A stretch of 50,468 nucleotides of DNA, taken from the IMG/VR virus record IMGVR_UViG_3300025769_000183, positions 1 through 50,468 of that record; one strand, 5' to 3'. The notes under the pieces were generated by a model. That model was not told where the DNA came from. It did no database searches and worked only from the letters and a program-made list of their open reading frames with translations. A program made the position numbers and the translations under genes. Positions 9,259-27,794 of the stretch are shown here, piece after piece (within the stretch, counting starts at the first letter, position 1; each line of letters starts with the position of its first letter). This stretch comes from a virus.

Positions 9259-9260
9259 GG

Positions 9261-9268: not shown

Positions 9269-9289
9269 TAGGTATCTAAAAGTAATAAA

Positions 9290-10027
9290 ATGGCTAGTGT
9301 TAATACGGTATATAACACCCTAAAAGACCTTGCTAATAAAGAGCAAAAGGGTTTTGTGACGCCATCTGTGTTCAACAACTTTGCTCAAATAGCGCAGGTG
9401 AACGTGTTCAAGGGAATGCTTGATAAGATTGTTGCGAGCAAAAGACTGCGTTTGCGTCAAGCAGACGGCAGCCGACATATGTCTGTTGAAAATCAAATCA
9501 AGGAAGATCTTTCTTCTTTATCAAAAACAACAACCTTGTCAAAATCTAATGGTGTGTTTACCAAGCCAGACGACTTTGCATATTTAATATCAATGACCTC
9601 CGGGGGAACAATCTTGTTAGGCCAGAGTACGCGTGTAAACGTTGAGGTGTTGTACGATGAATCTAAGATTGACTATATCTTAAAGAGCGACTTGTCTGCA
9701 CCCAGTGAATCACATCCTATTGGTTTGATATCTGACGACATCGAGGTTTTCCCTAGCAGCATAAGCCGACTAAGACTTACATACTACAAATACCCAGAAG
9801 GGCTTAGCCCCACAACTGGCGCAAGAACCGCTAGTCTTCCGTCATTCGGATACACTACATCAAACGGTGTACATGTTTATGACGCTAGCACTAGTGTAGA
9901 CTTTGAACTGCCGGACCACTATGTTCCCGAATTGGTAACTCAGATAGCAATGCTTATCGGTATTAATTTGAGAGACCAAGATGTGTTCACGTATGCTAGC
10001 CAGGAGGATATTAAAAACAAACAATAA
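9290..10027 (+). CDS. Head-tail connector-type virion protein
   Basis: 245 residues. The N-terminal 'ASVNTVYNTLKDLANKEQKGFVTPSVFNNFAQIAQ'-type helices are like those of small neck proteins in podoviruses of Bacteroidota. The middle is beta-rich and the C-terminal helix holds 'VPELVTQIAMLIGINLRDQDV'. Its stop overlaps the next ATG by one base (TAATGG). Genes between capsid and tail tube in podoviruses usually encode adaptor or ring proteins; the exact role cannot be read from sequence. Confidence 0.65.
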   Translation: MASVNTVYNTLKDLANKEQKGFVTPSVFNNFAQIAQVNVFKGMLDKIVASKRLRLRQADGSRHMSVENQIKEDLSSLSKTTTLSKSNGVFTKPDDFAYLISMTSGGTILLGQSTRVNVEVLYDESKIDYILKSDLSAPSESHPIGLISDDIEVFPSSISRLRLTYYKYPEGLSPTTGARTASLPSFGYTTSNGVHVYDASTSVDFELPDHYVPELVTQIAMLIGINLRDQDVFTYASQEDIKNKQ

Positions 10028-10854
10028 TGGCTAGAAATTACGTAAACTTAGAGCAGGTAGTTAACGACTTCATTATCACCCTAGATGGTGATGACTTTGT
10101 GGCCAATGCTACAGATACGCTGATCCGTACGTTTGCACTTCGTGGCATTCGTGAAATGGGTTTTGATTTATCTCAAAAGCTGCGTTCGTTAAAAATGAAA
10201 GTAAACACCGATAATAATACGGTAGAGCTACCAGACGATTACGTAGACTTGGTTAAGATTGGTGTGATTGGAGCAGATGGGCTGGTGTATGTTTTTGGTG
10301 AAAACCGAAATATGCATATTGCTCAAAAGTATAAGGTTACCTCCGGCAGCGACTTGCTTGCAGCCAATGCTATAGATTCTGACTCTGACGGGGTTTTTGA
10401 CAGAGTAGATGTAACAGAGAGCGGTCAAGAATATAACGCTCTTAGAGGATACGATTCTTATGTGTTCAGAAATTACTTGTACGAAAACAGTGCGGGTCAG
10501 TTGTATGGACTTGGCGGGGGACAGTATAGCGGTGAGTACCGTATCAATCTAGATCAGAGTCGTATTGAGCTTAGTATCAATGACCACGTAAACACAGTGG
10601 TTATGGAGTATGTATGTGATGAAGCTAGAAGCAGTAACCCTACCGTGCATGTTTTTATGGAAGAAGCGTTGCGTGCGTATATTTACTACAAGCTTATTCA
10701 GCACAAGGCAAGCGTGCCTATGAACGAGAAAATGCGTGCACGCACGGAATACTATAACGAACGCAGGCTAGCTAATTCTAGACTAAAAAGGTTTAACAAA
10801 GAAGAAGCACTCAAGGTTATTCGCAAGAATTCTAAGCAGTCTCCTAAATTATGA
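10027..10854 (+). CDS. Tail tubular A/adaptor-like protein
   Basis: 275 residues. The N-terminal half contains 'DTLIRTFALRGIREMGFDL' and 'VELPDDYVDLVKIGV', the L-P-x-D-Y-x-D/E pattern seen in podovirus adaptor (gp11-like) proteins. The C-terminal part is helical ('FMEEALRAYIYYKLI') and then very basic. Position directly before a very large tail protein matches the T7-like order adaptor then nozzle. The role at the portal-tail junction is inferred. Confidence 0.68.
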   Translation: MARNYVNLEQVVNDFIITLDGDDFVANATDTLIRTFALRGIREMGFDLSQKLRSLKMKVNTDNNTVELPDDYVDLVKIGVIGADGLVYVFGENRNMHIAQKYKVTSGSDLLAANAIDSDSDGVFDRVDVTESGQEYNALRGYDSYVFRNYLYENSAGQLYGLGGGQYSGEYRINLDQSRIELSINDHVNTVVMEYVCDEARSSNPTVHVFMEEALRAYIYYKLIQHKASVPMNEKMRARTEYYNERRLANSRLKRFNKEEALKVIRKNSKQSPKL

Positions 10855-13800
10855 TAATCAAGAACGTACCACAATACCTCAACAAAGCTTCGGACGAGAA
10901 ACTTCTCAAGCCGATAGAGATGTTGGATGCAGAGAACGTGCAGGTTTCATCTGACGATGACGGCAATGCTGGTATCGTTAAGACTATAAAGGGGAATGCT
11001 CATGTTGAGCAGAACTCTTCTGACGAAGTGTACTTTACTCCGGCAAGCCTTAAGGTTATCGGATCTGTCGCTATACCCAAGAAGCAGCAGGTAGTTTATT
11101 TTGCAAAAGCAGAGGCTAATCTTACAAACATAGACCACATTTATGTTTACGATGTAGACTTGAATAAGTATAAAATACTATACCGTGGTAACCAGCTAGG
11201 TTTTAACATTGACTCTTTTGTTGAGTCTAGTGTTGTGTTTAATGGTGACGACGAGGCGATCGTGTATTTTACAGACGGGGTGGGCGAACCCAAAAAGATG
11301 AATGTTGATCGTCTTCTAGCTAATCGTTCTGACATATGGAAGGATGCTGATGGTATTAACTACTACACTGACACAGATAGAGATGAGTTCTTTGCTGTCT
11401 GTAAAACCCCACCGCTAACCCCAATCACGTTTGAGTATACTACAGACACTGCTGTCCAAAGTAACAATGTCACAGACAAAACATTTCAGTTTGCATACCA
11501 ATACATCTATAAAGATGGAGAGGTAAGTGCTGTATCTACGTATTCTAAAATTGCAATTAATCCTAATACATTCGGCACTGGTGTTGTAGAGCCGGAGTTT
11601 GAGAGAGAGAATAACAAGATTGTACTGTCCTACCAGAACGGTGGATCGGAAGTTGAGTCTATTCGATTCCTTGCTCGTCTTGGTGGGACTACAGTCTTTT
11701 ATAAAATCGGAGAAGTAAACAATGGTACTGGGGCTAACCCCACCTTTGACTTTACTAATGATGGGATGTTCCCGGCTGTTTCGACAGCAGAGATAGATAA
11801 GGTGTATGATAATGTACCGCTAAAGGCAAACGCGCAGAGCATATCTGGAAATAGGCTAGTATATGGTGATTACACAGAGGGATACGACAATGTGGCAATT
11901 AACGTAGAGTCTTCTATCACATATAAAGACGTAGAGAATACCGGAACCATTAATGCTACACTACAATCCATCTCACTAGGAAACGGACCTGCTATCATTA
12001 TTGACGGTACAAACATGGCAGCTAGTTACGGTCAAGGTGCTATCATTAGATTGAAGGTTACATTATCCGGTTCTAGCGGCTCATTTAGAATCAGTAGAGA
12101 CTCCCCGTCATATTTATTTAGCGAGGATTATGTTGTCGGTTCGGACAACGGAAACTACGGATTAGGTCAGTACACTGGTAATCCATCAACCAATAACTAT
12201 GTAGACATTCCTTATAATACAGACAAGGTTCTCAGTGCTACTATCATAGCAGGTTCTGTTATGACGCGTGACGAGATCCTCGACGAGATAGAGACTCAGT
12301 TTGCGGCAACATCAAACGCTGTTTACGATTACACAAACAACGGTGTTAATTACAATGCCACTGGTGTTGTAACCTCTGTTGGTTCTGGTACACAGTCTTA
12401 TTCTGTAGGAGATCCAGTAGAGGTTGGATTAGACTTCCCGGAGATTGAGCTAGCCTTTACTGCTGATTCAGCATACACTGTTACAAACAAAAGAAAAATA
12501 GATATAGAGTTTGATGTACTTAAAGCAAAGGTTCATTATAACTCCGGTATATCAAAGCGCTTAGTGCAAATTGACGGTCATCCACTAAACGATACCAGAA
12601 CCACAGCTGCTAGTTACCTCGGGGTTGCTAACTTTAGATACATATCCACGACTAATGTGACTTTAGCCGTAGATGTCAAGCGTTCTCTAGAGGCAGGTCT
12701 TTCTTCGTTTAAGACAAGCGCAATGCATAATTTTGGTATTGTGTATTATGATGCTAAGGGCCGGGCTTCTTTTGTACAGAAAATTGACGGTGTTTTTGTT
12801 GGGGGCTACACCGATTCCAACCGAAGCACAAGCCTAGGCAGGGTTCAGATAAACTTAAAGATCAAACACAATCCACCTTCTTGGGCAAAGAAGTATCAGA
12901 TTGTATATGGGGGCAATGAAACTTATTCAAAGTTTCTCCAGTACGGGGTTGCCGGTGCTCACTACATTTCAGACCAAGACAGTATATACTTAGACTTGTT
13001 CCCTCTAGAAGGAAAGAATAATTCTTACTCGAAAGACAAAGGTGCAAACCTAGATTATACCTATCAAGACGGAGACATGCTTCGCATTATTTCGTTCCAT
13101 GATTCCTCACAGAATCGTGTATATGTTGATGACCAGATATACAACGTCCTTGGCAAAGAGTTGGTGACCGACGCTAGCGAGGTAACTCCAAGTCGTGCGT
13201 CTACATATGTTGTGATTAGAGATGAAGATTATTCCTCTAAAACGTACAGCAACTTTAACCTAACAAAAGTTAAGGCGGGTAGTGACGACTGGGGTCAGCG
13301 TGTTATGGTAGAGATAGTATCGCCTAACACCGTCAACAACGACACAGTATATTATGAGATAGGTGAAGTATACGATATTACTAGTGGCGCTCATGTTGGA
13401 GATATAACTGACGGCGGATATCCAGTAGTGCAGCTTACTGATGGCGATATTTACTTTAAGCCTCGCGAAGTGCTGGTTGCTCCTTTTGATTCTAGCAGTT
13501 CTGAATATGACGAAGATGATTATTCTAACTATGAATACGAAACTTTCTACGTGGAGTCTTCTAGTGTCAGCGACTACTTCGACTCAGAGGTTACTTCTCG
13601 AGGGCGTCCTCACGCTATCAATGAAGATGCAAAGCAGGTTCGTAGACGATCTTCTGTTACGTACTCAGATCCGTACATAGCGGACAGTGCTGTTTTAAGC
13701 CTCTCCAGCTTTAACCCAGCTACTGCTAACTTTAGCGACTTTGAGATTCGTCACGGAAAGATTGACAAGCTTGTTGACCAGACCGATAGACTTTATGTTT

Positions 13801-14945
13801 TCCAGGAGCACAAGGTAGGTATTGTAGGTGTAAACAGAAATATACTAGAGACCCTTACAGACCAGAACGTTGTGGTTTCTAATGTAGTATTTAGTACTCC
13901 AAATTATTATGCTGGAGACTTTGGCTCTAGCGGTTATCCTGCTGCTGTGGTAGAGCGGTTTGGTATGATGTATTTCGTGGATGTAAAAGCGCAGCGAGTG
14001 CTTCGCATCTCTCGTGACGGCATCACGCCTATTAGCGACCCGAATATGGATTCGTTCTTTGATAAGAAGTTTTCTTCATATTTAACTGAAAGCGGTAAGA
14101 CAGAGCTTGATATAGTTGCTGGTTATGATCCAGACAACTCAGAGTATGTGTTAACTAGTAAAGACCGTGGAAGCTACACTGGATTCACCATTGGGTACAG
14201 TCACAACAAGAGAGTGTTCACTTCTTTCTATTCTTTTAAACCAGACTTTTACACCCACATAAATGACAGATTCTTTTCTTTCAAAGTCGTTAGCGTTAGC
14301 GGTACGCAACAGTACATGTGGGAACATGGTGCTGGCTCAACATACGGCAATTTCTATGGCACAGACTACGACGCAAAGATTTCAATCATTGCAAACGCCA
14401 ATCCGTCCATGGTTAAAGCTTTCCAAGCATTATCACTAGAGGGTGATTCCGTGTGGTCTGCTGTGGTGTCTACCTCTAATCAAACCACCAGTATTGCTAC
14501 TGGGGATTTTGATGAAAGAGAGCGAGGTTACTACGCTGCTATACCTAGAGATACTAGCGCCTCTACTGCTAATTACATAACGATAGGTATTGTAGACGAC
14601 GTTACCGGAACAGCGGTAACCTTTGACAACAAGATTAATAGAATGCCTATACCTTTAGGTGCGGCATTGTATAAGGTTGACGGTAGCTCACTGACTAATC
14701 TTAATGCTACGGTGTCTAGTATTGATAGCTCTAAAAAGCTAACCACCAGTACTGCGCTTACTTCTTCTGAAGAGGGTAAGACTATTGTGGCTAAGCTTTC
14801 GGCTAAAGACGAAGGAGATGTCCTTAGAGATTACTACGCTAAGATTGAACTTACTAACTCTGTACATAACAAGAAGTCTGAGCTGTACGCTGTAAACACA
14901 GTGTTTGTAGATAGCCCTATGCACTCGGCGCTTAGTCAGAGATAA
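10851..14945 (+). CDS. Large tail nozzle/tubular B-like protein
   Basis: 1364 residues, almost entirely beta-rich, overlapping the preceding gene by 4 bases. The N-terminus ('LLKPIEMLDAENVQVSSDDDG' region, about 18-40) and the C-terminal third ('VDQTDRLYVFQEHKVGIV', 'VERFGMMYFVDVKAQRVLRISRDG', about residues 975-1060) resemble propeller-type segments of podovirus tail nozzle proteins. It is about twice the length of T7 gp12, suggesting extra fibre-dock or depolymerase-like insertions. No enzymatic motif was identified. Confidence 0.7.
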   Translation: MIIKNVPQYLNKASDEKLLKPIEMLDAENVQVSSDDDGNAGIVKTIKGNAHVEQNSSDEVYFTPASLKVIGSVAIPKKQQVVYFAKAEANLTNIDHIYVYDVDLNKYKILYRGNQLGFNIDSFVESSVVFNGDDEAIVYFTDGVGEPKKMNVDRLLANRSDIWKDADGINYYTDTDRDEFFAVCKTPPLTPITFEYTTDTAVQSNNVTDKTFQFAYQYIYKDGEVSAVSTYSKIAINPNTFGTGVVEPEFERENNKIVLSYQNGGSEVESIRFLARLGGTTVFYKIGEVNNGTGANPTFDFTNDGMFPAVSTAEIDKVYDNVPLKANAQSISGNRLVYGDYTEGYDNVAINVESSITYKDVENTGTINATLQSISLGNGPAIIIDGTNMAASYGQGAIIRLKVTLSGSSGSFRISRDSPSYLFSEDYVVGSDNGNYGLGQYTGNPSTNNYVDIPYNTDKVLSATIIAGSVMTRDEILDEIETQFAATSNAVYDYTNNGVNYNATGVVTSVGSGTQSYSVGDPVEVGLDFPEIELAFTADSAYTVTNKRKIDIEFDVLKAKVHYNSGISKRLVQIDGHPLNDTRTTAASYLGVANFRYISTTNVTLAVDVKRSLEAGLSSFKTSAMHNFGIVYYDAKGRASFVQKIDGVFVGGYTDSNRSTSLGRVQINLKIKHNPPSWAKKYQIVYGGNETYSKFLQYGVAGAHYISDQDSIYLDLFPLEGKNNSYSKDKGANLDYTYQDGDMLRIISFHDSSQNRVYVDDQIYNVLGKELVTDASEVTPSRASTYVVIRDEDYSSKTYSNFNLTKVKAGSDDWGQRVMVEIVSPNTVNNDTVYYEIGEVYDITSGAHVGDITDGGYPVVQLTDGDIYFKPREVLVAPFDSSSSEYDEDDYSNYEYETFYVESSSVSDYFDSEVTSRGRPHAINEDAKQVRRRSSVTYSDPYIADSAVLSLSSFNPATANFSDFEIRHGKIDKLVDQTDRLYVFQEHKVGIVGVNRNILETLTDQNVVVSNVVFSTPNYYAGDFGSSGYPAAVVERFGMMYFVDVKAQRVLRISRDGITPISDPNMDSFFDKKFSSYLTESGKTELDIVAGYDPDNSEYVLTSKDRGSYTGFTIGYSHNKRVFTSFYSFKPDFYTHINDRFFSFKVVSVSGTQQYMWEHGAGSTYGNFYGTDYDAKISIIANANPSMVKAFQALSLEGDSVWSAVVSTSNQTTSIATGDFDERERGYYAAIPRDTSASTANYITIGIVDDVTGTAVTFDNKINRMPIPLGAALYKVDGSSLTNLNATVSSIDSSKKLTTSTALTSSEEGKTIVAKLSAKDEGDVLRDYYAKIELTNSVHNKKSELYAVNTVFVDSPMHSALSQR

Positions 14946-14949
14946 TTAT

Positions 14950-14957
14950 TAAATTTG
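14950..14957 (+). promoter_or_regulatory. -7 promoter element
   Basis: TAAATTTG lies 17 nt before the ATG at 14975 and may give the internal-protein genes their own start. Confidence 0.5.
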
Positions 14958-14974
14958 TAAAATAGTATACTATT

Positions 14975-15781
14975 ATGATAGATCCAGTAACGGGAATGCT
15001 TATAGTCCAAGGGGTTACAGCCGGAGCGCAATATCTCTCTGGACGTAAGGAGGCTAAAAAAGCAGAGGCAAGAGAAGAGGAGATTCGTTCTGCGGGTATT
15101 CCTAAAATGGAAACCCCACAAGAATACTTTGATCTCTACATGAAGGCCAAAGAAAACAAAGGGGCTCAGCTTGCTACAGCGCAGGCTCAGCAAGGTATGG
15201 CTGATACCGCTGCTGCTTTGCAGGCCGGTGGTTCGCGTGCGTTAATCGGTGGTCTATCAGCGGCTCAGCGTAGAACAGACACAACAATTGCAGGTATTGG
15301 AGCACAATCTCAGCAACAAGAACTGTCTGCCCTTGAAGGTTTGGCTGGCGCTCAGATGCGCACCGGCATGATGAACACTCAGATGGCTGGCCAGGAATAC
15401 TTTAATGATTTGCAGGGAGCTCAGATGGCTTATCAGTCTGGAAGACAGATGCAGGCTAGCGCTATTAATAACTTCGCGCAGGCAGGGACTGCGGCTATGG
15501 GTGCTTACAGTGATGCTGATTACATGAAGAAATACGGGGATAGTGGCGTACTTAAGTTCTTCGGGAAACAAGGGATGAAGACTCCGGGTGAGTTTAGTCA
15601 CGATGAGAATCCTATCGATCTTGTACGCGATGGTCAGAAAATTGGAGAGGCTACCGGTGGAGAATATATATTTAATCCAGAGCAGTCTAAGAAAATGAAA
15701 GCACTTGCTGGTAAAGAGAAGTCTCCACTAGCAAAATACGTTGTAGGGTTACTTAATAAATTTGATAAGAAAGCAGGATGA
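14975..15781 (+). CDS. Internal virion/ejection-type protein, gp14-like
   Basis: 268 residues. The first ~170 are Ala/Gln/Gly-rich helices ('QYLSGRKEAKKAEAREEEIR', 'GGLSAAQRRTDTTIAG'), the composition of T7 gp14-like internal proteins. The C-terminal part has 'GEATGGEYIFNPEQ' (about residues 224-237), a motif found in many tail- or ejection-associated phage proteins. It is the first of three consecutive genes occupying the T7 gp14-gp15-gp16 position. Its stop overlaps the next start (ATGAG). Confidence 0.65.
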   Translation: MIDPVTGMLIVQGVTAGAQYLSGRKEAKKAEAREEEIRSAGIPKMETPQEYFDLYMKAKENKGAQLATAQAQQGMADTAAALQAGGSRALIGGLSAAQRRTDTTIAGIGAQSQQQELSALEGLAGAQMRTGMMNTQMAGQEYFNDLQGAQMAYQSGRQMQASAINNFAQAGTAAMGAYSDADYMKKYGDSGVLKFFGKQGMKTPGEFSHDENPIDLVRDGQKIGEATGGEYIFNPEQSKKMKALAGKEKSPLAKYVVGLLNKFDKKAG

Positions 15782-17157
15782 GTTTAATTTCAAAACCACT
15801 AGACTACAGTTCTGGAGCTACTCAAGCTGCTATCCAAGGCATTAGAGGTCAGCTTCAGATGGCGGCAATGGGCGCTGAAGAAGATCGTAGAGAGCGTAAG
15901 CGCGCTGAAGCGCAAGCAGCCTCCTTTGAGAAAAGCATGTCTGCTGCTGAAGGGTCGGTAAATTTCTTACCACCAAAAGCTCAGCAAGTATTCTCCGCCT
16001 ACCATGACGGTTACAAGCAAGCCTTGGATGCTTATGAAGAAAACCCATCTCAAGAAAACCTAAACAGTATCAACAGAATTGTTGGTGCTGCAAACACATA
16101 CTTGAGTCAATACGAGGGATTGCATAACGCAGACAAAAGCACTTTGCTAACCGGCATGTCCCAGCCAAACAAGTTTGGTATATCAACAGAGACAATGATG
16201 GGTGAGTTCGCTATGCGGCATGGTAACGATTCTGCATATAGCGAGGTTCGTTATGACCCTACTGTTGGTGATGTAGTTGTTAGCGGTGGCGGCATGGTTG
16301 GTCTTCGTGCTTCACAAGACCCTATGTTCAATCCGGACAATGCAATGATATTCCCTTCTAAGGCATCCATACCTAGAATAACCTCTGCTGAAGATTACGG
16401 TGGTAGATATGAGTCTTTATATTACAATCGACCAAGAGGGGAATTTGATAAAACCCTTCGCAATAGAATTGCTACGCAAGAAGAACTTCAGTTCTCAGCG
16501 GCAGCGTCATTAGCTGCTATGGATTACGGTAGCGATCCTCAAGACTTGAGTATAGGTATTGAGAACATCATGTCTGACCCAGAAGAAATGAAGCGAGCTA
16601 CAGATTTATATGTAGATAATGCGTGGAGGCAAGCAAACATTGCTCATCAAAGAAGAAGAGAGCAAGAAAGCACTGGTCTAGACTACAATGGATCGGATGC
16701 AGTGACCTTTACTACAGAGGACTACGACTATACCGCAGGTCAGATGACCACAACAAAAATGTCAGCAGATATTCCTACCTTTGATAAACCAATAAAGGTG
16801 TTGATTGAGGCTGATCCGGGTAACGAAAATACCCCTACTTATCAAAGAGTTGTGCTAGGCGCAGCACAGCTCCCAGATGACGAGGGGATCGTTATAAAAG
16901 AAAATGTCGGAACTACATATTATCAAGATCCTAACTCTGGAGAGGTAAGTAATACCCCTCAGCCAGGCTGGGCAGAGATGACTCGTTATGAGAATAGAAG
17001 TAGAGTAATCAAACCTATTGGTATAGATGGGCGTAAAGAATACGCCGCCTATATGAATGCACTTGAAAAACAAAATGCGTTAAACCAAGAGGCTTCTTTA
17101 CGGGTGATTAGCACAGAGCAAAGTGCGCTACCCGGACCACCGATGCCTCCACAATAA
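15778..17157 (+). CDS. Internal virion/ejection-type protein, gp15-like
   Basis: 459 residues. It has a helical, charged N-terminus (about 1-110), a mixed middle, and a Pro-rich C-terminus ('ALPGPPMPPQ'). No enzymatic domain was seen. Position between a gp14-like and a giant gp16-like gene suggests it forms part of the ejectosome that crosses the envelope ahead of the DNA. That role is inferred from order and from its 4-base overlap with the upstream gene. Confidence 0.6.
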   Translation: MSLISKPLDYSSGATQAAIQGIRGQLQMAAMGAEEDRRERKRAEAQAASFEKSMSAAEGSVNFLPPKAQQVFSAYHDGYKQALDAYEENPSQENLNSINRIVGAANTYLSQYEGLHNADKSTLLTGMSQPNKFGISTETMMGEFAMRHGNDSAYSEVRYDPTVGDVVVSGGGMVGLRASQDPMFNPDNAMIFPSKASIPRITSAEDYGGRYESLYYNRPRGEFDKTLRNRIATQEELQFSAAASLAAMDYGSDPQDLSIGIENIMSDPEEMKRATDLYVDNAWRQANIAHQRRREQESTGLDYNGSDAVTFTTEDYDYTAGQMTTTKMSADIPTFDKPIKVLIEADPGNENTPTYQRVVLGAAQLPDDEGIVIKENVGTTYYQDPNSGEVSNTPQPGWAEMTRYENRSRVIKPIGIDGRKEYAAYMNALEKQNALNQEASLRVISTEQSALPGPPMPPQ

Positions 17158-17165
17158 CATACTAG

Positions 17166-20100
17166 ATGAACGACGAGTTACTGCAATTATTGCAGAGTGG
17201 GTTTGATAGTGGATACAGCGAGGACCGCGTATTTGCTATGGCTATTAAGAATGGGTTTTCCTACAACGAAGTGACGTTGGCCCTAGAGTCTATTAGTAAA
17301 AAAAAAGACCAAACTCAACCTCCTCCCCAGGTTACAGACACTATGGTTTCTGGCTTGGAAGACTCTGGGTTGGATTTATCATACGAGACAAAGGCTGACG
17401 GAACGCAGTTTCCAGACGACTTATTAACTCAGCGATTTACTCAAAGCTCTGCTCCAAATAATAAACCGCAGGAAACTAACGATAGAGAATACCGTCATGC
17501 ACTAATCGCTGATGATTGGTTCGCTGATAGAGATGATTGGTTCGGTCGTACCGCTAGATGGTACAATAACTTTATGGCTATGGCTCTTGCGACCGGGGCT
17601 CAAGAAGATCTCCTAGACGAAAGCCCAGAGAACAATGTTGATGCTGCAGAGCGACTGGCTTATTACAACGAAATACAAAACAAATACAGAGACGAGCGAG
17701 GGTATCCCGGATGGGGAGATCTTGGTTCTGCTAGCGGATGGTGGAAGATGGTTTTACCGGAAGTAGCAGGTAACGTTTTTTCATCTATTGCTGGTGGTTT
17801 TGCAAGCGGTAGTGCGCAAGAAACTGTATTAAAAACTATTGCAGAGGGTCAAGCTATAGGAACTAGCGCTGGTCTTGCTGGTGGTCCTCTTGCTGAGTTT
17901 ACGGTTCCAATAGGTTACGTAGCTGGTACAGCATACGGTGCTGCTACCGGTACTTCTTTTGCTGGTTCATACGCCCTTGAAATGTCAGAGGCTATCGCCA
18001 AGGCTCTTGAAGACCTGCATATAGATACAGAAGACCCGGAAGAAATTGCACAGACCTTTGAGTCTGAGGAGGGTTTGAAAAAGATTAGAGAAGCAATGGA
18101 GCGCCGTAAGGTACGCGCTGCTACTATTGCATCTGTAGATGCTCTTCTCGCTGGAGGTGGTGGTAAAACCGCGCAGGCTATTAGAAAAGCTGGAGGTAGT
18201 AAAACAAAAGCAGTGGTCGCTGAGATATTAGTGGATGCCGCTGGAGGTGGTGCTGGTGAAACTGCAGGTCAGATCGTTGAAGAGGGTAAAGTTACCTCGG
18301 GTCTTGATATTGTTATGGAGGCTCTTGGCGGCCCAGTAATGGCCACGCCTGCTGCTGTAACCCGTGGCGCTAGCGCTAGGTATACAGAGCTGATGACTCC
18401 TACTGCAGAGAGAAACTATATCCAATGGGCTCAGCAGAACAAAGAAAACGGCAGTAGTATTACTACCGCGGCTTCACTTATGGGTGACGGCCAGGTTCAG
18501 ATAGTAGAGAAAAAGATACAAGAAACAAAAGAGCAGCTTAAGAATGCTAAGGGCAAAGAGGCAAAGCAAACTTTGCGTGATGACCTTAAGCAACTTAGAG
18601 AGAAGAAATACGAGATGCTCAATGCAAACATTAGAGCATTCGAGGAACTCAATCAAGACCAACAAGTAGAGTTACTCGAGAAGAGTCAAAAGATATTTGC
18701 ACTCCAGCAGGAGATGCAGGAGACAACAGACACAAAGCTTAAGTCAAGATTGGGTGCAGAGATCCTCACTATGATGACGGGCTTTAATACGTTTGAAGTA
18801 GAGGCTGTAGCCCCAGCGGTAGAAACTACTACCATGGATCAAATGCAGGCTCCGGTTATGCCAACAACAGATGCTAAGCCTATCGTCGAAGGGCGCTCTG
18901 AGGTTGACGCCTTAACTATCAACACACTAGAAGATGGAACTGAGGTTATTGCTCAGCGTCCTATCGATGGAACAGAGGTGCAAGGCGCTCTCCGCTTGGA
19001 GGGTAACCCAGAAAACCCTACACTGGTAGTTGAGACTGAAACAGAAAAAGTAGAACTCGGGCAGCGTAGTGAGGTAGACCCGTCTACAATCAGAATGTTT
19101 GAGCCGGCTATTGCTGAGCGTGAGACACTAGCGGTGCAGGAAGATGGATCGTTTGTTTATCAACGTGATGACAACCCTAACGTACCGCAAGGAACAAAGC
19201 TTACTATTGATGAAGAGGCTGGCGTTAGCGCTATCTCTGTATTTGGCGAAGGCCAATTCAATCCACTACAAACACCAGAGGCAATTGCTGGTGACGCAGA
19301 CAGAGGTGTCCGTGTACAAATGAAAAACGAAAGCGGTGAGGTTGTTGAGCTCTACGGCCAAGACGCATTGGATGCTGCATATCAAATACTGCTGGCAGCC
19401 AAAGAGAACCCTGCAGATAGAGCAAAAGTTAACCAAGTAATTGAGAACAATGAAGCAGCAAGACAAGCCCTTGAACAAGCCGAACGTGAGTTCGCAGAAG
19501 AAGGATCTGTACCAGAGACTGATGGACCTACCACAGAGCAAGCGCAACCAAGTGTTGGCCCAGCTCCTCGCCCAGCCGAAAGAGTAGCCCCGGGTGCTGC
19601 TGAAGAGGCAGCGTCAGAAACGGAGAAGACTAGAGAGGCCGTTAACGAACTAGACGATTCCGTTGAGGTTCGTGGTGGCGCAGTAAATCCAAGACGCCAC
19701 GGTGTAACCCCACGTATTGCAAGCATGCTTAACAGCGCGTATAATGCATTCGTTGGTTTATATACAGAAGCTCCTCGTGTTATTATCCATAAAACAAAAG
19801 AGTCGTTGCAGCGTGCTACCGGAGGCCCGTACGAAGCTTTCTATGAACATGAAAGAGAGGGTGGCCCAGCTATACACGTTATGTATAATGCGACTACCGC
19901 TGCTATACGTGAAGAGTTTGCGCACGCAGGACTTCGTCACGTCATGGTACTCCAGCCTGCTGTTCGTACAAAATTGTTTAACGACCTGCAAGGCATTAAC
20001 AATGAAACACTTCGCAATAAAATCAATGAGCGCTTCCGTAAGTACGTAGCGTTCTATATGGAGCGTGGTGCTTCTGAGGCAAAGGCTGTTGCCATCGCTG

Positions 20101-23100
20101 AAGAGGAGGCTATTGTCGGTATCATTGCAGACATCAACGACAACCTTAATCAGATTGACGCTAGTGCTAAGGCTAAGACTAGACGTGTTATCAACAAGAT
20201 GCTCGGCACTAAGCTTGGCAAGTTCCACCTAAAGAGCAACAACGATTTAGTCAATATGATCGAGCGTGTTACGCAGGGATACAGAACTGGTAATAAGATA
20301 TACATATTAGACATTGTTAGAAACGCACAGCCAAATCCAAATCCGAACCCGGCAGAGGCAATGCGTACTGAGTCTGACCCTACATCAGATGACCGTGCTC
20401 GATTGATTGACTTTGCGTTTGACCGTGACCTCGATTTGTCCGACATGAAGAAGTTGGGTAGCGGTGCTTTTGGTTATGCCTTCATGGTTAAAGATAAGGA
20501 TGGGCGAGACGTTGTCCTTAAGCAGGCACAGAGCGTTGACGAGATGTACATTGCTTCAAACTACTTTGATAGATTTGGTGGTAAGCTACCGGGCCTTGCT
20601 CAGTACTACGATGTAGCAATTGCTTCCGATGTAGATGGAGTGCCGTTTATATACCAACTCAAAGAGTATTTACCGACATCAATGACAGACGTTGTTGGTA
20701 GAGATGGCGTCACTTCTCAGCTTAACATTGGCGCTGTAATCGGAGACCTTGAGAACATTGCTGAATCATTAAACAGAAACTTCCCTTACTCCGGTGCTTT
20801 AGGTCCTAGTAGAGGGATTAGTAAAATCCAGCATCAAGCCATGATCGAAAACATGACCGTGGCGAAACAACTTTACCAAGCTCTTAAGGCTGCTAGACTT
20901 GAGTCAATCAATGATTCAGAGAGAACTGCTGGTTCTGGTTTTGTAGAGTTGAGACTGTCTAATCTAAAGGCAGTGTTTAGTCCTATACTAAATTCAAGAG
21001 AGCTTAACATAGAAATGAACACATACAAATACTTGTATGAACATTTGTTTGGTTTAGACTACTACGCTGACGACCGTTTGGTTTTAAAGCCGGATGTCAC
21101 TAGAGCTGAGTTATCTGCCTCACTTTTGCGTAAGCATGTAGTAAAGAGTTTAGTTACTGATATCGCTGACGGTTTGTTTAATTGGGCGTCTGTTGGTACT
21201 GCTACTTTAGAGTCGCTTCAAACAAAGGCTAGGCTCTTGGGTGAGGCCAGTCCTAGCAGCTTAGAGCGTTACGAGATAAGACAAGAATCTTTAGAAGATC
21301 TAGAGCAAAACCACCCCGGTTCGCTAGAGAAGATATCTAAATTGTACGACAACAATGAAATGATATTCACTCTAATAGACAACGCTATCCGTGCTGCTTT
21401 TGACGTCGAAGGCTTTACCGCTGAAGAAGTGATAGATGTTTCGATGGCTTATCTCGATAACCAGGTGGCAATGAGTAAGAGTCTTGGGCAGTTGGGCTTG
21501 AGATCAGCAGACCTTCACCCTGGCAACGTAGGGTTCGCAGCTATCAACTCCGAGAATAAGATTGAAAGATTCTCTTCTGTCAAGTTCTTTGATATCATGG
21601 GCCCGATATATGAGGGCGTAGAGCGAGGAGGGAATTTCCCGGTTACAGAGATTGATGCGTTTATAGCCAGGGATTTCAAGGAGTTTGTTAATGAAGGTAA
21701 CAGAAGACTTAAAGATGCTGCCGCTGATATGGATTACTACACCAGTTTCGGTGAGGAAGACTTTGCGGCACGCACATATTACAATCACATAGGTGTTGGT
21801 GTTATACCTCCTATCACCATCAAGGCTATACTAGATGCAGAACCGGAAATGTCTATAGGCGAAAGCAACCTGGGGTATGATGGTACTGCACATCCTAAAT
21901 CTAGAGAAGCTCTTAAGCACATAGCAAAGACCATTGGTCTTGTTAAACTGATGCATAAGAATCCAGACTACAAGTTAATGAGGGTTCTGCAAAACGAGTT
22001 GTTTAAAGTAGATGGTGCTCTGGGTGTTACCAAAGTAGACACTCAACAGCGTGACGACATATACTTCTTTAACGAGCAGGTACAGACAGCTTTCCATGAT
22101 GTGCTCCAAGAGTATCAGCGTGAGGCTATGCTTGATCCTAGTGAGCGTTCAACTGTAGACAGTGGCAACCGTGCTCGTATTGAAGAGTACCTTCTTGCCG
22201 AGAGTATTGAATTTAAGGCGATCGAAGAGATTGGCTCTGGTGCTTTTGGCAAAGCATTTATTGTTAACACCCCAGACGGAAACGTCGTTGTTAAAAGAAC
22301 CGCAAGCAAGAGAGAGACCTACATTAGTTCAAGATATATCAAGCGCCATAACGGTAAGCTTCCTGGGCTTGTTAAGTATCACGCGATGAGGGCGATGTTC
22401 CTGGACGCCGCAAACGATTGGATGGGCAGCGGTGTGATATTTGTCACAAAAGATTTATCAAACACAACTGTTGACAAGTACGGTTCTAGTTATGATATTT
22501 CGGTAGGCGATGTCTTCGGACAGATTACACTGGCTGTTAATAGTGTATACGATAAGTCAACAGAGCTGCTAGGTAATGTAGATCCTGGACCAGGTGTGCG
22601 TAACGGTATAGATTTACATACCGCGCAAAATACCGCGCTGGCTTTAATGCAGGTCTATCAAGACCCATACAAGGTTGCAGAGATTAATAAGTATATTGAA
22701 GATGAGCTTCCGGGAATCATGCTTCGTGGAGACAATTCCCCTAACACTGTAACTCAAGAAGTTATTGACGGGTCTATGACCCTTGAAGATATCATTGGTT
22801 ATGCTGTTAACTTCTGGCAGATGGCAGGGTCGTTTACTTTATTAGGCGCCGCCAATCCAGATATACACAGCGCTAATCTAGGTTTCTCAAAAGAAGAGAA
22901 AACATTAAATGGATACCCCTTACTTGAAGCATTTGATGTTGACGGGTTTGAGAACAACATGATGCTCAACAGCCGCCAGGCACAAGAGGACCATCAAACT
23001 TTCATGAATGAGATAACAGACGAGACAAAAGCTGCATTCATTCCTGGGTATCAAGACAAGCAATACTTCTTCTTTGGGCAACCGTTTTCTCAGTTGAATC

Positions 23101-26100
23101 CAGTGGGGCTTGTTGGTGAGGAGGCTGCTAAGTTTAGAGAAGAGAACAAAGATGAGATAGTAATGGAGACCGCTATCCCAGCTCAAGTTCCAATCACCAC
23201 CATGCAGGACGTCATGTACGATCAAGAAGAGGCTGAGTACACAGCAGGAGACATCATTGAAGAACTTCGATTGCCTCGAGACGACGAATCTCCTTACAGT
23301 AATAAGGACCCGTATTCAGATATACTTAGACAGTACGATTACGGATACACAATCCCATACCTTGACGGTACAGAATTGTTTAGAGATTTCCGTAGACAAG
23401 AAGACGGAAGCACGGCAGACTTTAGAGCTGGAGAGATAGCGGAACTGCTTACCAAGAACATAGATCAGTATGCTCTTAGTGATATGATTGAAAGGATGAA
23501 TGAGCCTATGTTCCAAGCAACCTATTCAAGTCGATTCAAGGATATCTTTGAGACCAGAGAAAAACAAAGAGCAAGCTTGGTTTCTGCCTTGAAGTCTAAG
23601 CTCGACTACATGGAGAATGGAAACCGCGCTCGACTAGATGACGAGACCGTTGAGTTAGCGGTATCTAAAATCAGCGGCGGCAAGCGCGTGTCTCCTGCTC
23701 GTGCTACATCTGCTGGTTCAGATGTCAAGCTTAACTATGACGGGTCGAGACAAATCTCTATGGACTACACCAGAGAGAACGCTCCAGCTGTATATGTTCG
23801 TGGCGCTTTCGTATTGGGTACACACACAATGATGTCTGACATCAAGGGTACTAAAGCTTTAGATACTAAGAACCCTACAGAGGCTCAACTGAAAAAGGCT
23901 GACGAGATCTACGAGATATTCGTTGAGCGCGCAACCAAGAACCTTATTAGACTTCACGATTCTTTCAGTGAAGATGTGAGAAAATATTCTAAGCTCTGGT
24001 ATGTTGGTGCTAACCTTACCGCTCAAGACATGGGCGCAAGATATGGGTACTCTCAAGAGCAAGCCGCCGGTATCCTAGCGGCTCTGTCTCCGCAGAAAGA
24101 TTGGTATCAGAACATGGCGCTAGCTGAAGCGGTGATGCGCGTGATGCGCAATCAGAAAGATACAGAGTTTTCTAAGGCTATGTATAACAAAGCCCTTGGT
24201 AATACACGTAAGGTAAACAACAAGGTGCTTAGCCAGCAAGACTTTAAGAAAGCGGTAAACGAAAAAGCATACCAAGCTTACCTCAAGAGAAAGGCTGTGT
24301 TGCAGAGCATGATAGGCAAGACTTTAGGCGAGATGAGTCTCGAGGAAAACGGAGCTATGAACGCTGCTATGTTTGTCCGTACATACAACGAGATGTTTGA
24401 GGATCGCAACTACCACGTGGTAAGTCCTATTGGTGAGCGTATTGGTTATGCTAAGAAAGCAGATGGGTCTATGTCCACTATGGCATGGGGTTCTTATGCT
24501 GAGATTTCTTCAGCAACATCTATTGTGTTGAACGGTACTATGTCAAACATCGACAAGCAGGTTGGTGACCAACACAAGGTGCGTTCATTCTTCAACAATA
24601 TCAATAACCCTAACTCTTTGGAGGGTGATGTTACGATTGACACTCACGCTGTTGCGGCTGCAGAGCTACTACCTTTAGCAGGGTCTAGCTCAGAGGTGTT
24701 CCACAACTTCGGCGGTGGTACTGCTGCTATGAAAGTCAAAGCTGGTAGTTCAAACCTCGGCATCAAGGGTGTGTACTTTGCGTATGCAGAGGCATACCGT
24801 AGAGCAGCAGACGAGAAAGGTATACTTGCAAGAGAGATGCAGTCTATCACATGGGAAGCTGTACGTACTTTGTTTACCGCAGGCTTCAAGGCTCAGAAGA
24901 AAAACAAGCAAGAGGTTCGTGCCATCTGGCAAGAGTATAGCAAGGGTAACATTAGCTTTGAAGAAGCTCAAGACCAGGTGTTTGAAAGAGCCGGCGGTGT
25001 GTTCAACCCGGACTGGTATGTAGACAGCGGCGATCGCGCAAGGCTAGATGAAACTAGAGAGAGACGTCACGCTCGCAAGATGTTCCAGAACCTACGACCA
25101 GATGTTCCTTTCGAGGCAGCCGTTCGTGAAGAACTTAAGAGAGACCCTTCTAGATTCTATGAACCTCAAAAGTTTAGCGAGATCAAAGAGCGTCTAGAAG
25201 AGATGAGTATTGAGGAGCTCCTTGCTGAGATGAAAGACGTTGCTATGTTTGACGGAGATAACCCCTCTGTTATCAATGACGCAATGGGTTCTTTAGCCGG
25301 AGGAGACTTCCGTGTTCTAGCAACACTTGAGTACCTCAAGAGACTGCAGCAGCAGGGGCGTACTTCTGAGTACCGTGCTGTTCTGAAAAGGTTCTTTGAA
25401 ACTGGTACAGCTGTCGGTCAATTGTTACGACAGTTCGGTGAAATAAAAGGCCAGACTCCAGAGGGAATGAAAGACCTGGTTGACAGTGTGTACGAAGCAA
25501 ACGGCACTACTCTCTCTGATACAGAGTACGAAGAGATGGGTGCTATTGTTGATGATTTGTTTGATGGTCAGCAAGATGTTCAAGCATTGATCAAAGAGCT
25601 TTCGGAAACCACAGACATGGACCGTGTTGGAGAGATTGAGGGAAGATTAGAGGACGCTAAACGCAGAGTGTCTGAGGCTAACAAACGATTGAATGAATTC
25701 AATAGCAAGTATGCTATGACATGGGGTAAACTAATTGGTTTACTTATCCAAGGTAACCTTCTTACTCCGGTGTCGCAGATGGTCAACGTTACCGCCAACC
25801 TTTCTACGCTACCTATCCTAATGCTAGACAAGACTCTTGGGTATGGCGCTGAGGTTTTGATTAACGGTATCCGCAAGAGCATGGGGAAAGATGTTGACCC
25901 TAGTATAGCATCATTACCACCTTCTATAACTGCAGCAATCTACGCTGGTAAACAGTTTGGTGTTGGTATTAAAGACGCATACAAGAGTGCTATTGGAGAG
26001 ACTGTACCTAACGATAAGTTTGAGTACAACATGCAGCTTCAGCTGGCGCCCATCAAAGCATTCGGTTTGATAATGGCGAACAGCGACAAGCTTCCGGACG

Positions 26101-27794
26101 CTGTGAAGAACGGTACTAAATTAGATCAGATTGATTACCGTGCTAAGAAATTCCTAGAGGCAGTTGGTGGTACACCAGCAAACCTTATGTTCAGACTGCT
26201 GGCGTTTGGTGATGTGCCGTTCTTTAAATTCATGGAGGGATACGAACTATACAGAGTCGGTAAGTCTTTAGGGCTTAGTGGTGATGAGTTAAATAGATTC
26301 TTGAAGTATCCAAATGAAGAGTACAGAAACAAGGCAACACAAGCAGGTCTAAAGGTTACGTTCCAAGAGGATAACCAGTTTGCTACATGGTTGAATAAGG
26401 CTATAACAAGAACCGCTGATTTAATCGGGGAGCGCAGTCGTGTATTAGAGAATGCTTTCCGTGTTGTGGTGCGTATGCACATGCCGTACGTTAAGACTCC
26501 GGCTAACATCCTCGCTCAAAGTATTCAGCTAGCACACCCTGCTATACCTATTGCTACCATTGCTATCAAGAAAGCAGCAAGAGGGAGAGTATCTCAGCGC
26601 GAGCTTGCCGAGTTGTTGTCGAAAGCATTCATGAGCTGGCTGATGTATAAAGCCACACAGCGATTGATGGAAAGCGGATTGATTACTACTCCGGTAGATG
26701 CTGACGTTGCAAGAGAAAGAGATTTGAAATACTCGGTCGCTCCACCCAACTCGATCAACATCACCGGTATCAATAGACTATTGAAAGGTGAAGACCCTAC
26801 ACTTCAAGCGAATGATGTATGGTTTAACTATCAGAAGCTTGGTCTTGGTGGTGCGGTAATGGCAGCCCAGGCAGTAGGCTTGAAGTCCACAATGCGTGAT
26901 GCGCAGATGGAGTCTAGAGTACTTAACCGCTCGGACAACTTCATGGATTACCTTGCAGATTTAACGGGTGTTGTTCCTGGGGTGTTAGGTTCTATGATGA
27001 ACCAGTCTTTCCTTACTGGTATTGACGGTATCATTAAGCTTCTTGCTGACCCAAGCGAGCGCCAGCTCACTAAGTACCTTGAGAACATTTCGCGTTCTGG
27101 TTTCTCTGTGATTCTCCCGAACTCACTCAGCGCATTCTACCGCTCTGGTCGTGAGTATCTTCCGGACTACAGACATCCTAACGCAGACTTCTTCAACGTG
27201 CTTGACAACATCTTGCGTGATAAGACATTCAACTACCTGGGTACTGGCGAGCAGGTCATACCTCGTGTGAATATTTGGGGTGAGTCAATCACGCAAACTC
27301 CAGAGGGTGGTGGCTCATTGATGATCGGTGATGGAGATGAGTACCCTTGGTTGTACAATACCTTCGGTGTATTCAAATCTAGAATCAGTTCTACTGACCC
27401 GGTAAAGGTTGAGATATACAACTTGTTCAAAGAGACCGGTGACACTGATGTGATCCCTGGATATCCTATGCCGGTGGGTAAGTTAAAGATTCAACTCACC
27501 AAGAGTGAATCAGCTTACTATGGATTGAATGTAAACGAACCGCACTACATTGACGTGATGCCTAAAGATGCGCATGCTATGATGAAGATGTTCGGTACAT
27601 ACAGATACAATGAGATTAAGAAGTTTGTTTCAAGCGACTCTTACGAGCGAATGACAAACGCACAAAAGATTAGTGCTTTGAAATCTATTTACAATAGAAA
27701 TTCTAGAGGCACATACGATGGCGGTATCTATCCATGGAAAGCATACCGTGATGGAATGGTTAGAAATTATTTTTTAGATTTAGGAGATGAGTAA
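17166..27794 (+). CDS. Giant polyvalent internal virion protein with two kinase-like domains
   Basis: 3542 residues in one frame, over a fifth of the genome. Layout read from sequence: Gly/Ala-rich, membrane-prone segment (~197-280); coiled coil (~444-519); Pro/Glu linker (~784-825); region with EEFAH at 916-920, like a zincin HExxH with its first His replaced; kinase-fold domain 1 (Gly loop 'LGSGAFG' at 1097, Lys 1119, 'DLHPGN' at 1449, 'FDIMG' at ~1475); kinase-fold domain 2 ('IGSGAFG' at 1689, Lys 1710, 'DIHSAN' at 1899, 'FDVDG' at ~1923); a domain with 'ALSPQKDW' (2306) and 'IDTHA' (2491) resembling HhH-GPD glycosylases; and a C-terminal part (~2850-3540) like the LPD38-type domain of large polyvalent proteins. 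[GD][ND]RAR[LI] motifs sit at about 1075, 1667, 2152 and 2622. It is probably ejected into the host with the DNA. Both kinase cores look intact, but their targets cannot be predicted. Confidence 0.8.
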   Translation: MNDELLQLLQSGFDSGYSEDRVFAMAIKNGFSYNEVTLALESISKKKDQTQPPPQVTDTMVSGLEDSGLDLSYETKADGTQFPDDLLTQRFTQSSAPNNKPQETNDREYRHALIADDWFADRDDWFGRTARWYNNFMAMALATGAQEDLLDESPENNVDAAERLAYYNEIQNKYRDERGYPGWGDLGSASGWWKMVLPEVAGNVFSSIAGGFASGSAQETVLKTIAEGQAIGTSAGLAGGPLAEFTVPIGYVAGTAYGAATGTSFAGSYALEMSEAIAKALEDLHIDTEDPEEIAQTFESEEGLKKIREAMERRKVRAATIASVDALLAGGGGKTAQAIRKAGGSKTKAVVAEILVDAAGGGAGETAGQIVEEGKVTSGLDIVMEALGGPVMATPAAVTRGASARYTELMTPTAERNYIQWAQQNKENGSSITTAASLMGDGQVQIVEKKIQETKEQLKNAKGKEAKQTLRDDLKQLREKKYEMLNANIRAFEELNQDQQVELLEKSQKIFALQQEMQETTDTKLKSRLGAEILTMMTGFNTFEVEAVAPAVETTTMDQMQAPVMPTTDAKPIVEGRSEVDALTINTLEDGTEVIAQRPIDGTEVQGALRLEGNPENPTLVVETETEKVELGQRSEVDPSTIRMFEPAIAERETLAVQEDGSFVYQRDDNPNVPQGTKLTIDEEAGVSAISVFGEGQFNPLQTPEAIAGDADRGVRVQMKNESGEVVELYGQDALDAAYQILLAAKENPADRAKVNQVIENNEAARQALEQAEREFAEEGSVPETDGPTTEQAQPSVGPAPRPAERVAPGAAEEAASETEKTREAVNELDDSVEVRGGAVNPRRHGVTPRIASMLNSAYNAFVGLYTEAPRVIIHKTKESLQRATGGPYEAFYEHEREGGPAIHVMYNATTAAIREEFAHAGLRHVMVLQPAVRTKLFNDLQGINNETLRNKINERFRKYVAFYMERGASEAKAVAIAEEEAIVGIIADINDNLNQIDASAKAKTRRVINKMLGTKLGKFHLKSNNDLVNMIERVTQGYRTGNKIYILDIVRNAQPNPNPNPAEAMRTESDPTSDDRARLIDFAFDRDLDLSDMKKLGSGAFGYAFMVKDKDGRDVVLKQAQSVDEMYIASNYFDRFGGKLPGLAQYYDVAIASDVDGVPFIYQLKEYLPTSMTDVVGRDGVTSQLNIGAVIGDLENIAESLNRNFPYSGALGPSRGISKIQHQAMIENMTVAKQLYQALKAARLESINDSERTAGSGFVELRLSNLKAVFSPILNSRELNIEMNTYKYLYEHLFGLDYYADDRLVLKPDVTRAELSASLLRKHVVKSLVTDIADGLFNWASVGTATLESLQTKARLLGEASPSSLERYEIRQESLEDLEQNHPGSLEKISKLYDNNEMIFTLIDNAIRAAFDVEGFTAEEVIDVSMAYLDNQVAMSKSLGQLGLRSADLHPGNVGFAAINSENKIERFSSVKFFDIMGPIYEGVERGGNFPVTEIDAFIARDFKEFVNEGNRRLKDAAADMDYYTSFGEEDFAARTYYNHIGVGVIPPITIKAILDAEPEMSIGESNLGYDGTAHPKSREALKHIAKTIGLVKLMHKNPDYKLMRVLQNELFKVDGALGVTKVDTQQRDDIYFFNEQVQTAFHDVLQEYQREAMLDPSERSTVDSGNRARIEEYLLAESIEFKAIEEIGSGAFGKAFIVNTPDGNVVVKRTASKRETYISSRYIKRHNGKLPGLVKYHAMRAMFLDAANDWMGSGVIFVTKDLSNTTVDKYGSSYDISVGDVFGQITLAVNSVYDKSTELLGNVDPGPGVRNGIDLHTAQNTALALMQVYQDPYKVAEINKYIEDELPGIMLRGDNSPNTVTQEVIDGSMTLEDIIGYAVNFWQMAGSFTLLGAANPDIHSANLGFSKEEKTLNGYPLLEAFDVDGFENNMMLNSRQAQEDHQTFMNEITDETKAAFIPGYQDKQYFFFGQPFSQLNPVGLVGEEAAKFREENKDEIVMETAIPAQVPITTMQDVMYDQEEAEYTAGDIIEELRLPRDDESPYSNKDPYSDILRQYDYGYTIPYLDGTELFRDFRRQEDGSTADFRAGEIAELLTKNIDQYALSDMIERMNEPMFQATYSSRFKDIFETREKQRASLVSALKSKLDYMENGNRARLDDETVELAVSKISGGKRVSPARATSAGSDVKLNYDGSRQISMDYTRENAPAVYVRGAFVLGTHTMMSDIKGTKALDTKNPTEAQLKKADEIYEIFVERATKNLIRLHDSFSEDVRKYSKLWYVGANLTAQDMGARYGYSQEQAAGILAALSPQKDWYQNMALAEAVMRVMRNQKDTEFSKAMYNKALGNTRKVNNKVLSQQDFKKAVNEKAYQAYLKRKAVLQSMIGKTLGEMSLEENGAMNAAMFVRTYNEMFEDRNYHVVSPIGERIGYAKKADGSMSTMAWGSYAEISSATSIVLNGTMSNIDKQVGDQHKVRSFFNNINNPNSLEGDVTIDTHAVAAAELLPLAGSSSEVFHNFGGGTAAMKVKAGSSNLGIKGVYFAYAEAYRRAADEKGILAREMQSITWEAVRTLFTAGFKAQKKNKQEVRAIWQEYSKGNISFEEAQDQVFERAGGVFNPDWYVDSGDRARLDETRERRHARKMFQNLRPDVPFEAAVREELKRDPSRFYEPQKFSEIKERLEEMSIEELLAEMKDVAMFDGDNPSVINDAMGSLAGGDFRVLATLEYLKRLQQQGRTSEYRAVLKRFFETGTAVGQLLRQFGEIKGQTPEGMKDLVDSVYEANGTTLSDTEYEEMGAIVDDLFDGQQDVQALIKELSETTDMDRVGEIEGRLEDAKRRVSEANKRLNEFNSKYAMTWGKLIGLLIQGNLLTPVSQMVNVTANLSTLPILMLDKTLGYGAEVLINGIRKSMGKDVDPSIASLPPSITAAIYAGKQFGVGIKDAYKSAIGETVPNDKFEYNMQLQLAPIKAFGLIMANSDKLPDAVKNGTKLDQIDYRAKKFLEAVGGTPANLMFRLLAFGDVPFFKFMEGYELYRVGKSLGLSGDELNRFLKYPNEEYRNKATQAGLKVTFQEDNQFATWLNKAITRTADLIGERSRVLENAFRVVVRMHMPYVKTPANILAQSIQLAHPAIPIATIAIKKAARGRVSQRELAELLSKAFMSWLMYKATQRLMESGLITTPVDADVARERDLKYSVAPPNSINITGINRLLKGEDPTLQANDVWFNYQKLGLGGAVMAAQAVGLKSTMRDAQMESRVLNRSDNFMDYLADLTGVVPGVLGSMMNQSFLTGIDGIIKLLADPSERQLTKYLENISRSGFSVILPNSLSAFYRSGREYLPDYRHPNADFFNVLDNILRDKTFNYLGTGEQVIPRVNIWGESITQTPEGGGSLMIGDGDEYPWLYNTFGVFKSRISSTDPVKVEIYNLFKETGDTDVIPGYPMPVGKLKIQLTKSESAYYGLNVNEPHYIDVMPKDAHAMMKMFGTYRYNEIKKFVSSDSYERMTNAQKISALKSIYNRNSRGTYDGGIYPWKAYRDGMVRNYFLDLGDE

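Follow-up and report, generated by a model that had tools for sequence, protein, structure and literature searches.

Conserved RAR tags at module borders of a giant phage protein, candidate recognition sites for proteolytic separation

The virus record IMGVR_UViG_3300025769_000183 from IMG/VR (50,468 nucleotides, analysed at its full length and called the window below) encodes a giant protein in which a short peptide of the form [GD][ND]RAR[LI] recurs at four module borders. The peptide is conserved in related viral contigs and its RAR core is under selection as a peptide. Based on sequence comparisons, the four tags are tentatively read as recognition sites at the N-terminal edges of modules, with proteolytic separation of these modules as the likeliest use.

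Four tags in one giant protein

The giant open reading frame and the tags (M1 to M4) are located in the window as follows.

17166..27794, plus strand: giant open reading frame, 3542 amino acids, terminal gene of a virion-protein cluster, with a holin gene next to it
20388..20405, plus strand: tag M1, DDRARL, residues 1075-1080
22164..22181, plus strand: tag M2, GNRARI, residues 1667-1672
23619..23636, plus strand: tag M3, GNRARL, residues 2152-2157
25029..25046, plus strand: tag M4, GDRARL, residues 2622-2627

A six-frame scan of the whole window gave exactly four copies of [GD][ND]RAR[LI], all in the giant open reading frame, and the wider pattern [GDNSE][DNE]RAR[LIVM] gave the same four copies only. 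An earlier note on this DNA had placed the motif at these four points, mostly behind a short acidic or polar run, and both observations hold since such a run precedes every tag (SDPTS at M1, STVDS at M2, YMEN at M3 and YVDS at M4). From the composition of the giant protein the pattern is expected 0.0022 times, a figure calculated post hoc, unlike the tests of conservation and codon differences given below. The tripeptide RAR occurs four times compared with 1.0 expected, and all four occurrences are the tags, but this count by itself is weak evidence for the tag.

Among families of recurring 8-mers, the tag set ranked first both in the window (sum 87, compared with 51-75 in six shuffles) and in the relative L021 (105, compared with 66-89 in six shuffles). 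With seeds restricted to the stretch past the peptidase-like motif described below, the tag was the top match in L021 with none of 40 shuffles reaching it; in the window DDRARL ranked third, and the top score was matched by 7 of 40 shuffles.

Conservation and selection

Nine related viral contigs cover 31 tag sites in all, and the tag is kept at every one of the 31. All four sites are covered by L001, L005, L002, L004/L017, L020 and L021, three sites by L003 and L018, and one by L016, each contig being counted once; L019, L022 and L023 start past M4, cover no site and were left out. Several of the contigs are near copies, and the independent lineages are about five (the window, L002, L017, L018 and L021). 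The earlier note had regarded a failure to recur in relatives as decisive against its proposal, and the tag recurs wherever its site is covered. Across the relatives [ND]RAR is constant, while the preceding residue (G, D or A) and the final L or I vary. In the record IMGVR_UViG_3300046167_000506 (L004) the giant gene is found in two frames (7663-9882 and 9620-17776) with the break before the first tag, either an error of assembly or a genuine break.

At the amino acid level the window and L021 are 75% identical upstream of M1 and 76% identical in the C-terminal part, and the values for modules 1, 2 and 3 are 40%, 44% and 77%. The RAR core is more conserved than its surroundings at the codon level. 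Pairwise comparisons between lineages gave 37 synonymous and no non-synonymous differences in the RAR codons of the four sites, compared with 368 synonymous and 399 non-synonymous differences in the 30 codons on either side of the tags; these pairs are not independent, and the counts are given with no P value. The comparison set consisted of the window, L017, L018 and L021 (without L018 for M1), and L002, L003 and L020 were excluded as near copies. Random residue triples drawn no more than about 60 residues from each tag were invariant at all four places in 45 of 100,000 draws.

Selection on RAR acts at the peptide level because the core shows only synonymous codon differences. A function of the tag at the protein level is likely because a leftover, passive linker fails to explain this codon pattern. 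Chance similarity within a long protein would agree with an RAR count only fourfold above expectation, and looser searches for recurring peptides do yield many chance families, but the complete conservation of the sites and the rarity of equally conserved triples in the same neighbourhood make this explanation hardly credible.

The earlier note had offered two readings, processing sites or a linker type reused in module shuffling. The first is kept in that a protein-level function is favoured, with cleavage as a candidate, and the passive linker is disfavoured. A linker carried along in the copying or swapping of modules, and now functionless, would fit a change point in identity between the window and L021 at residue 2142, 10 residues before M3; the other change point, at residue 1125, falls 50 residues past M1. 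This explanation is improbable considering the purifying selection on RAR and the different codons in the different copies, although two other giant proteins described below speak in its favour.

The RAR codons also differ among the tag copies of the giant protein, and the tag as a DNA recombination site was rejected because codons differ both between copies and between lineages. A search across viral contigs for NGNRARLD with CGN arginines matched six stretches, every one from the family of the window giant, in a search form that misses copies with AGR codons. VDSG[ND]RAR matched ten stretches across viral contigs, of which five belong to this family; in the other five the peptide lies only in open reading frames of 74-111 amino acids (three stretches) or in none of at least 40 amino acids (two stretches).

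Modules and their borders

The following modules are separated by the tags.

20406..22163, plus strand: kinase-like module 1 (GSGAFG, K, DLHPGN, FD), from a seven-module alignment and weak Foldseek matches
22182..23618, plus strand: kinase-like module 2 (GSGAFG, K, DIHSAN, FDVDG), from the same alignment and weak Foldseek matches
23679..25016, plus strand: DUF7178 module (PF23802), residues about 2172-2617, E 1.2e-22 for the entire protein
25047..27791, plus strand: C-terminal segment with hydrophobic stretches, 76-92% identical in relatives

Homology to independent domains places the tags at the module borders. The glycine-rich loop G-x-G-A-F/Y-G begins 23 residues after the tag in both kinase-like modules, in agreement with the 22-25 residues from motif to kinase start given in the earlier note. 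Seven kinase modules were aligned, three copies of module 1 and four of module 2, with 22-68% identity to the first; RAR is invariant in all of them, as are the lysine, F-D, D-x-H-x-x-N and the glycine loop. Foldseek with a structure model gave no match at E<=0.001; kinases were at the top, with weak matches to kinases and aminoglycoside phosphotransferases. When solved structures were searched with a profile of the kinase alignment, most matches were to kinases over a short glycine-loop stretch (best E 0.0014). N-lobe and catalytic motifs are seen in the modules; polyvalent-type kinases are described as lacking the C-terminal subdomain, and the fold model of the window modules is poor. About 175 residues between the kinase halves (window residues about 1200-1395, 20763-21350; also in L017) are mostly missing from module 1 of L021, an insertion within the kinase-like module.

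M3 and M4 bracket DUF7178, whose relatives occur alone or inside other giants. The window module aligns with sequences from a Proteobacteria metagenome-assembled genome (L066), Jannaschia (L067) and a Planctomycetaceae metagenome-assembled genome (L068), and from the phages zth2-2 (L007), CRP-738 (L008) and OP947163 (L009). The alignment with L007 stops 5 residues short of M4 and that with L009 stops 33 residues short, whereas L067 aligns up to the first residue of the tag, and L068 and L008 up to the third. L066 aligns from 20 residues after M3 to 16 residues beyond the start of M4, and lacks the motif. The tag does not belong to the DUF7178 module, because the alignments of its relatives end around M4 and lack the tag, and the motif as a property of DUF7178 was rejected on the same grounds. 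The lysine of SPQKDW is conserved in the module (within 23679-25016), which also has a [TV][IMV]DTH motif, a combination that may point to helix-hairpin-helix DNA glycosylases such as EndoIII. In the record OL791268 (the end of L007 and the start of L011), which is marked UNVERIFIED, the frame of the giant breaks at the record start, possibly because of a sequence error at the joint.

The structure models have a mean pLDDT (predicted local distance difference test) of 38 and 33, and are poor for want of alignment depth. In these models M1 and M2 begin helices (model residues 215-227 and 807-819), and M3 and M4 are found in coil. The domain borders claimed in the earlier note are hence supported by homology, for the kinase modules and DUF7178, and the structure models are too poor to decide the matter.

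The model helices would suit a tag that is a structural helix start, in which N or D caps a helix used in module packing and the arginines form conserved salt bridges. N and D are good helix caps, but the helix dipole disfavours arginines in such a position. Modules that follow M2, M3 and M4 are moreover dissimilar to each other, which makes a shared RAR for packing unlikely, and the DUF7178 relatives manage without the tag. Considering also the quality of the models, such a structural role is rather unlikely.

Probable recognition sites and their possible cleavage

In the favoured reading, the peptides (written [GDA][ND]RAR[LI] for the family) would be recognised at the protein level, each of them marking the N-terminal border of one of the last four modules. 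Recognition by one partner is suggested because the peptide is constrained, recurs wherever one of these modules starts, is missing from the same module in other proteins and gives way to a different repeated peptide in some other giants. The giant polyvalent-type protein would be made, packaged and delivered as a single chain. Cuts at or beside the tags would then free an N-terminal piece of about 1074 amino acids, two kinase-like effectors of 592 and 485 amino acids, the DUF7178 module of 470 amino acids and a C-terminal piece of 921 amino acids. Cutting would be the simplest use because a peptidase motif precedes the first tag in several lineages. Two peptidase candidates are found in the window.

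19767..20315, plus strand: metallopeptidase-like domain of the giant protein, residues about 868-1050, with E916-E-F-A-H920, weak profile match to L077
37815..38732, minus strand: ArdC-like gene with an intact HELVH MPTase-PolyVal domain (PF18818 E 4.1e-28, PF08401 E 1.8e-23)

The domain before M1 would be the obvious candidate for the cutter, but its zinc motif is altered; a host peptidase may cut instead, or the site may now serve for docking only. We infer both the cutting of the giant protein and the identity of the cutter. M1 lies 159 residues after EEFAH. When residues 868-1050 were compared with the HETLH peptidase domain of L077, hhalign gave E 0.022 and a probability of 2%, with the register of the zinc motif set by eye. 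The L077 domain is 40% identical to the corresponding domain of gp18 in the elemo phages (HEIFH).

Repeated tags in other giant proteins

The earlier note had proposed a search for the motif at domain borders in other large polyvalent proteins. The motif is confined to the family of the window giant, and other giants carry other tags. RAAEQ[RK] is found four times in L077 and [LM]FQ six times in L009 (OP947163). Among giants drawn from the best 80 of 584 DUF7178 loci, RA[AS]VGR is found four times in L134, LFGG five times in L142, [QE]ASS[LI] four times in L122, P[VS]FSR three times in L097, [KR][FY]SL four times in L116 and [KR]RSQ three times in L100. The numbers expected from composition are 0.0015 to 0.12, and 0.59 for [LM]FQ. 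The other proteins compared lack most of these patterns, and the codons differ among the copies where these are shown.

RAAEQ[RK] in L077 precedes two modules, precedes DUF7178 and follows DUF7178. The two modules look like ADP-ribosyltransferases (ART) by eye, without a Pfam match. Copies of [LM]FQ in L009 include those before ART-PolyVal, before a methyltransferase, and before and after DUF7178. That DUF7178 is flanked by different tags in different proteins is as expected if every tag is matched to a single partner belonging to its protein.

The distance from HExxH to the first tag is 128-183 residues in nine giants where the motif is intact: 149 in L077, 183 in L134, 169 in L122, 169 in L097, 144 in L116, 151 in L100, 128 in L009, 150 in L104 (KRKQ) and 160 in L089 (TLQE). 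L100 and L104 look related, and L142 is without HExxH.

L066 and L077 carry [AT]EQ[RK] tags and are 80% identical over 546 residues. They are homologous through a shared RAAEQRV tag behind DUF7178 and soon look unrelated beyond it, so modules have been exchanged there. A giant fragment from the Proteobacteria contig (L066:1-6522) has the tag copies KPKGTEQRV and EPKGTEQRVDV, which are identical in DNA over CCC AAG GGT ACT GAG CAG CGG GTC, a recent copying of the border linker. The divergence beyond the shared tag and the DNA-identical copies are what speaks for the reused linker discussed above.

It is possible, though doubtful, that the giant polyvalent proteins of phages are polyproteins whose cleavage code is specific to the lineage. 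The peptidase would lie immediately ahead of the first tag, every later effector module would bear the tag of the protein it belongs to, and changes in the site would go along with changes in its reader. Modules taken over from another phage would then have to gain the local tag.

Weighing cleavage against docking

Several observations weigh against cleavage. EEFAH replaces HExxH in both the window and L021, so that the first zinc histidine is lost, and the homology of the window domain to metallopeptidases (MPTases) is weak. Pfam gave no MPTase match in the window giant, and a downstream glutamate that is conserved in L077 and the elemo protein has no clear counterpart. Because the motif is EEFAH, the giant protein does not have an intact protease in cis; the sequence argues against a standard active zinc peptidase, and the candidate looks dead or altered.

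The MPTase domain of the ArdC-like protein is matched only in the L018 contig among six further records (five family members and L077). It was not found in the relatives of 55.5 and 58.5 kb that keep all tags, records which may be incomplete. The ArdC-like protein as a protease in trans is not favoured since these two longest relatives keep the tags but gave no match.

The predicted helices at M1 and M2, from a poor model, would also fit a helix cap. Furthermore, none of the syntenic giants (phi38:1, Panino, MW202828 and the elemo phages) shows [ND]RAR[LI]. The gp18 protein of elemo has GNRAN C-terminally and GNRAI and SNRAT internally, all outside defined borders, and these were not used as evidence.

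The tags of the other giants were chosen after looking, partly by eye, and blind tests did not confirm the idea as a general rule. Border segments of DUF7178 giants were richer in recurring peptides at p<=0.05 in 0 of 20 proteins upstream and 1 of 20 downstream. The zone after HExxH gave 2 of 18, compared with 3 of 19, 0 of 18 and 1 of 18 in controls. Considering the top three recurring families per protein, a family on both sides of DUF7178 that scored above all six shuffles was found in 2 of 22 proteins (L081, of the family of the window giant, and L134). The border-segment test and the flanking-family count used one representative per 70% cluster, with 20 clusters from 41 open reading frames of at least 1200 amino acids (39 of the 80 were shorter), and L077 and L009 were added for the flanking count. 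A general rule that border segments hold recurring peptides is unsupported by these tests and is kept as a lead.

The tag could instead be bound uncut, for example by an internal virion protein at packaging, or be a point where unfolding or refolding starts during passage through the tail. One tag for each C-terminal module and selection at the protein level agree with such a docking or threading signal, and an active protease is not required, consistent with EEFAH. Giant ejected proteins are also thought to unfold through the narrow tail, according to a preprint on the N4 virion RNA polymerase (PMC12633501). On the other hand, this explanation is without a candidate partner, the N-terminal 1074 residues are without a tag, and the peptidase motif ahead of the first tag in several unrelated giants is left unexplained. 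Because the likely protease in the window phage looks dead or altered, cleavage is proposed only tentatively; docking or threading is kept as a less likely alternative.

Place of the giant gene in the genome

The neighbouring genes were identified by PHROGs. The virion protein encoded at 6980-8344 matches 85 phage records (32-34% identity among the matches listed), from Cellulophaga, Flavobacterium and Maribacter phages and one unassigned record. Homologous virion genes are found in a similar order as in phi38:1-like (Pervagoviridae-like) podoviruses, with the gene order alike in four records. Syntenic giants occupy the same place at the cluster end: gp101 of phi38:1, the proteins of Panino (1829 amino acids) and MW202828 (3859 amino acids), and gp18 of elemo (3694 amino acids). 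Since gp101 and gp18 carry the annotation "structural", the synteny makes it plausible that the window giant is delivered with the genome.

A gene for a GroES-like co-chaperonin (41907-42503) lies upstream of the terminase gene, an arrangement also found in phi38:1 and the elemo phages. A RadC-like gene (37059-37706) adjoins the ArdC-like antirestriction gene with its ArdcN and MPTase-PolyVal domains.

Comparison with known systems

Eukaryotic RNA-virus polyproteins have many near-identical short sites per chain for one protease, and the sites differ between lineages. The window giant likewise has repeated, conserved short sites between modules, a likeness by analogy only, without homology. 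Closer in genome position are gp101 of the Cellulophaga phage phi38:1 and gp18 of the Flavobacterium elemo phages, which have the same place in a related virion cluster. Both are without [ND]RAR[LI], and gp18 has an intact HEIFH peptidase domain.

Polyvalent proteins were defined by Iyer et al. 2017 (PMC5512222), who also describe their MPTases and kinases. Like these proteins the window giant is a multidomain phage protein with kinase-like and metallopeptidase-like domains, and several effector or modifying domains are found in one polypeptide (the two kinase-like modules and DUF7178). In contrast, its peptidase-like domain is without the canonical HExxH. DdrB and DarA of phage P1 also offer a large head protein that is proteolytically processed, with an MPTase in DdrB, but the processing of DdrB is described as taking place before packaging (PMC5512222), unlike the cleavage after delivery proposed for the window giant. 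The virion RNA polymerase of N4 is likewise ejected and very large, at about 3,500 residues, and contains an MPTase domain (PMC5512222); the preprint PMC12633501 discusses its unfolding at ejection. It is described as packaged unprocessed and is a polymerase, not a row of effectors (PMC5512222, PMC12633501).

No report of repeated border tags in giant phage proteins was found in the open-licence literature searched: the available part of PMC11980606 has nothing on border tags, and that of PMC5512222 names no border peptide and lacks the words "linker" and "interdomain". If the tags are cleavage sites, module borders could be read from the sequence, effectors could be expressed as natural fragments, and the exchange of effector modules between phages would have a readout in the sequence. 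For polyvalent proteins, autoproteolysis by MPTase domains has been proposed to occur before packaging, in the head or after injection, with no sites named in the available text (PMC5512222). The tags would supply such sites, and the proposal would become testable through N-termini at named residues.

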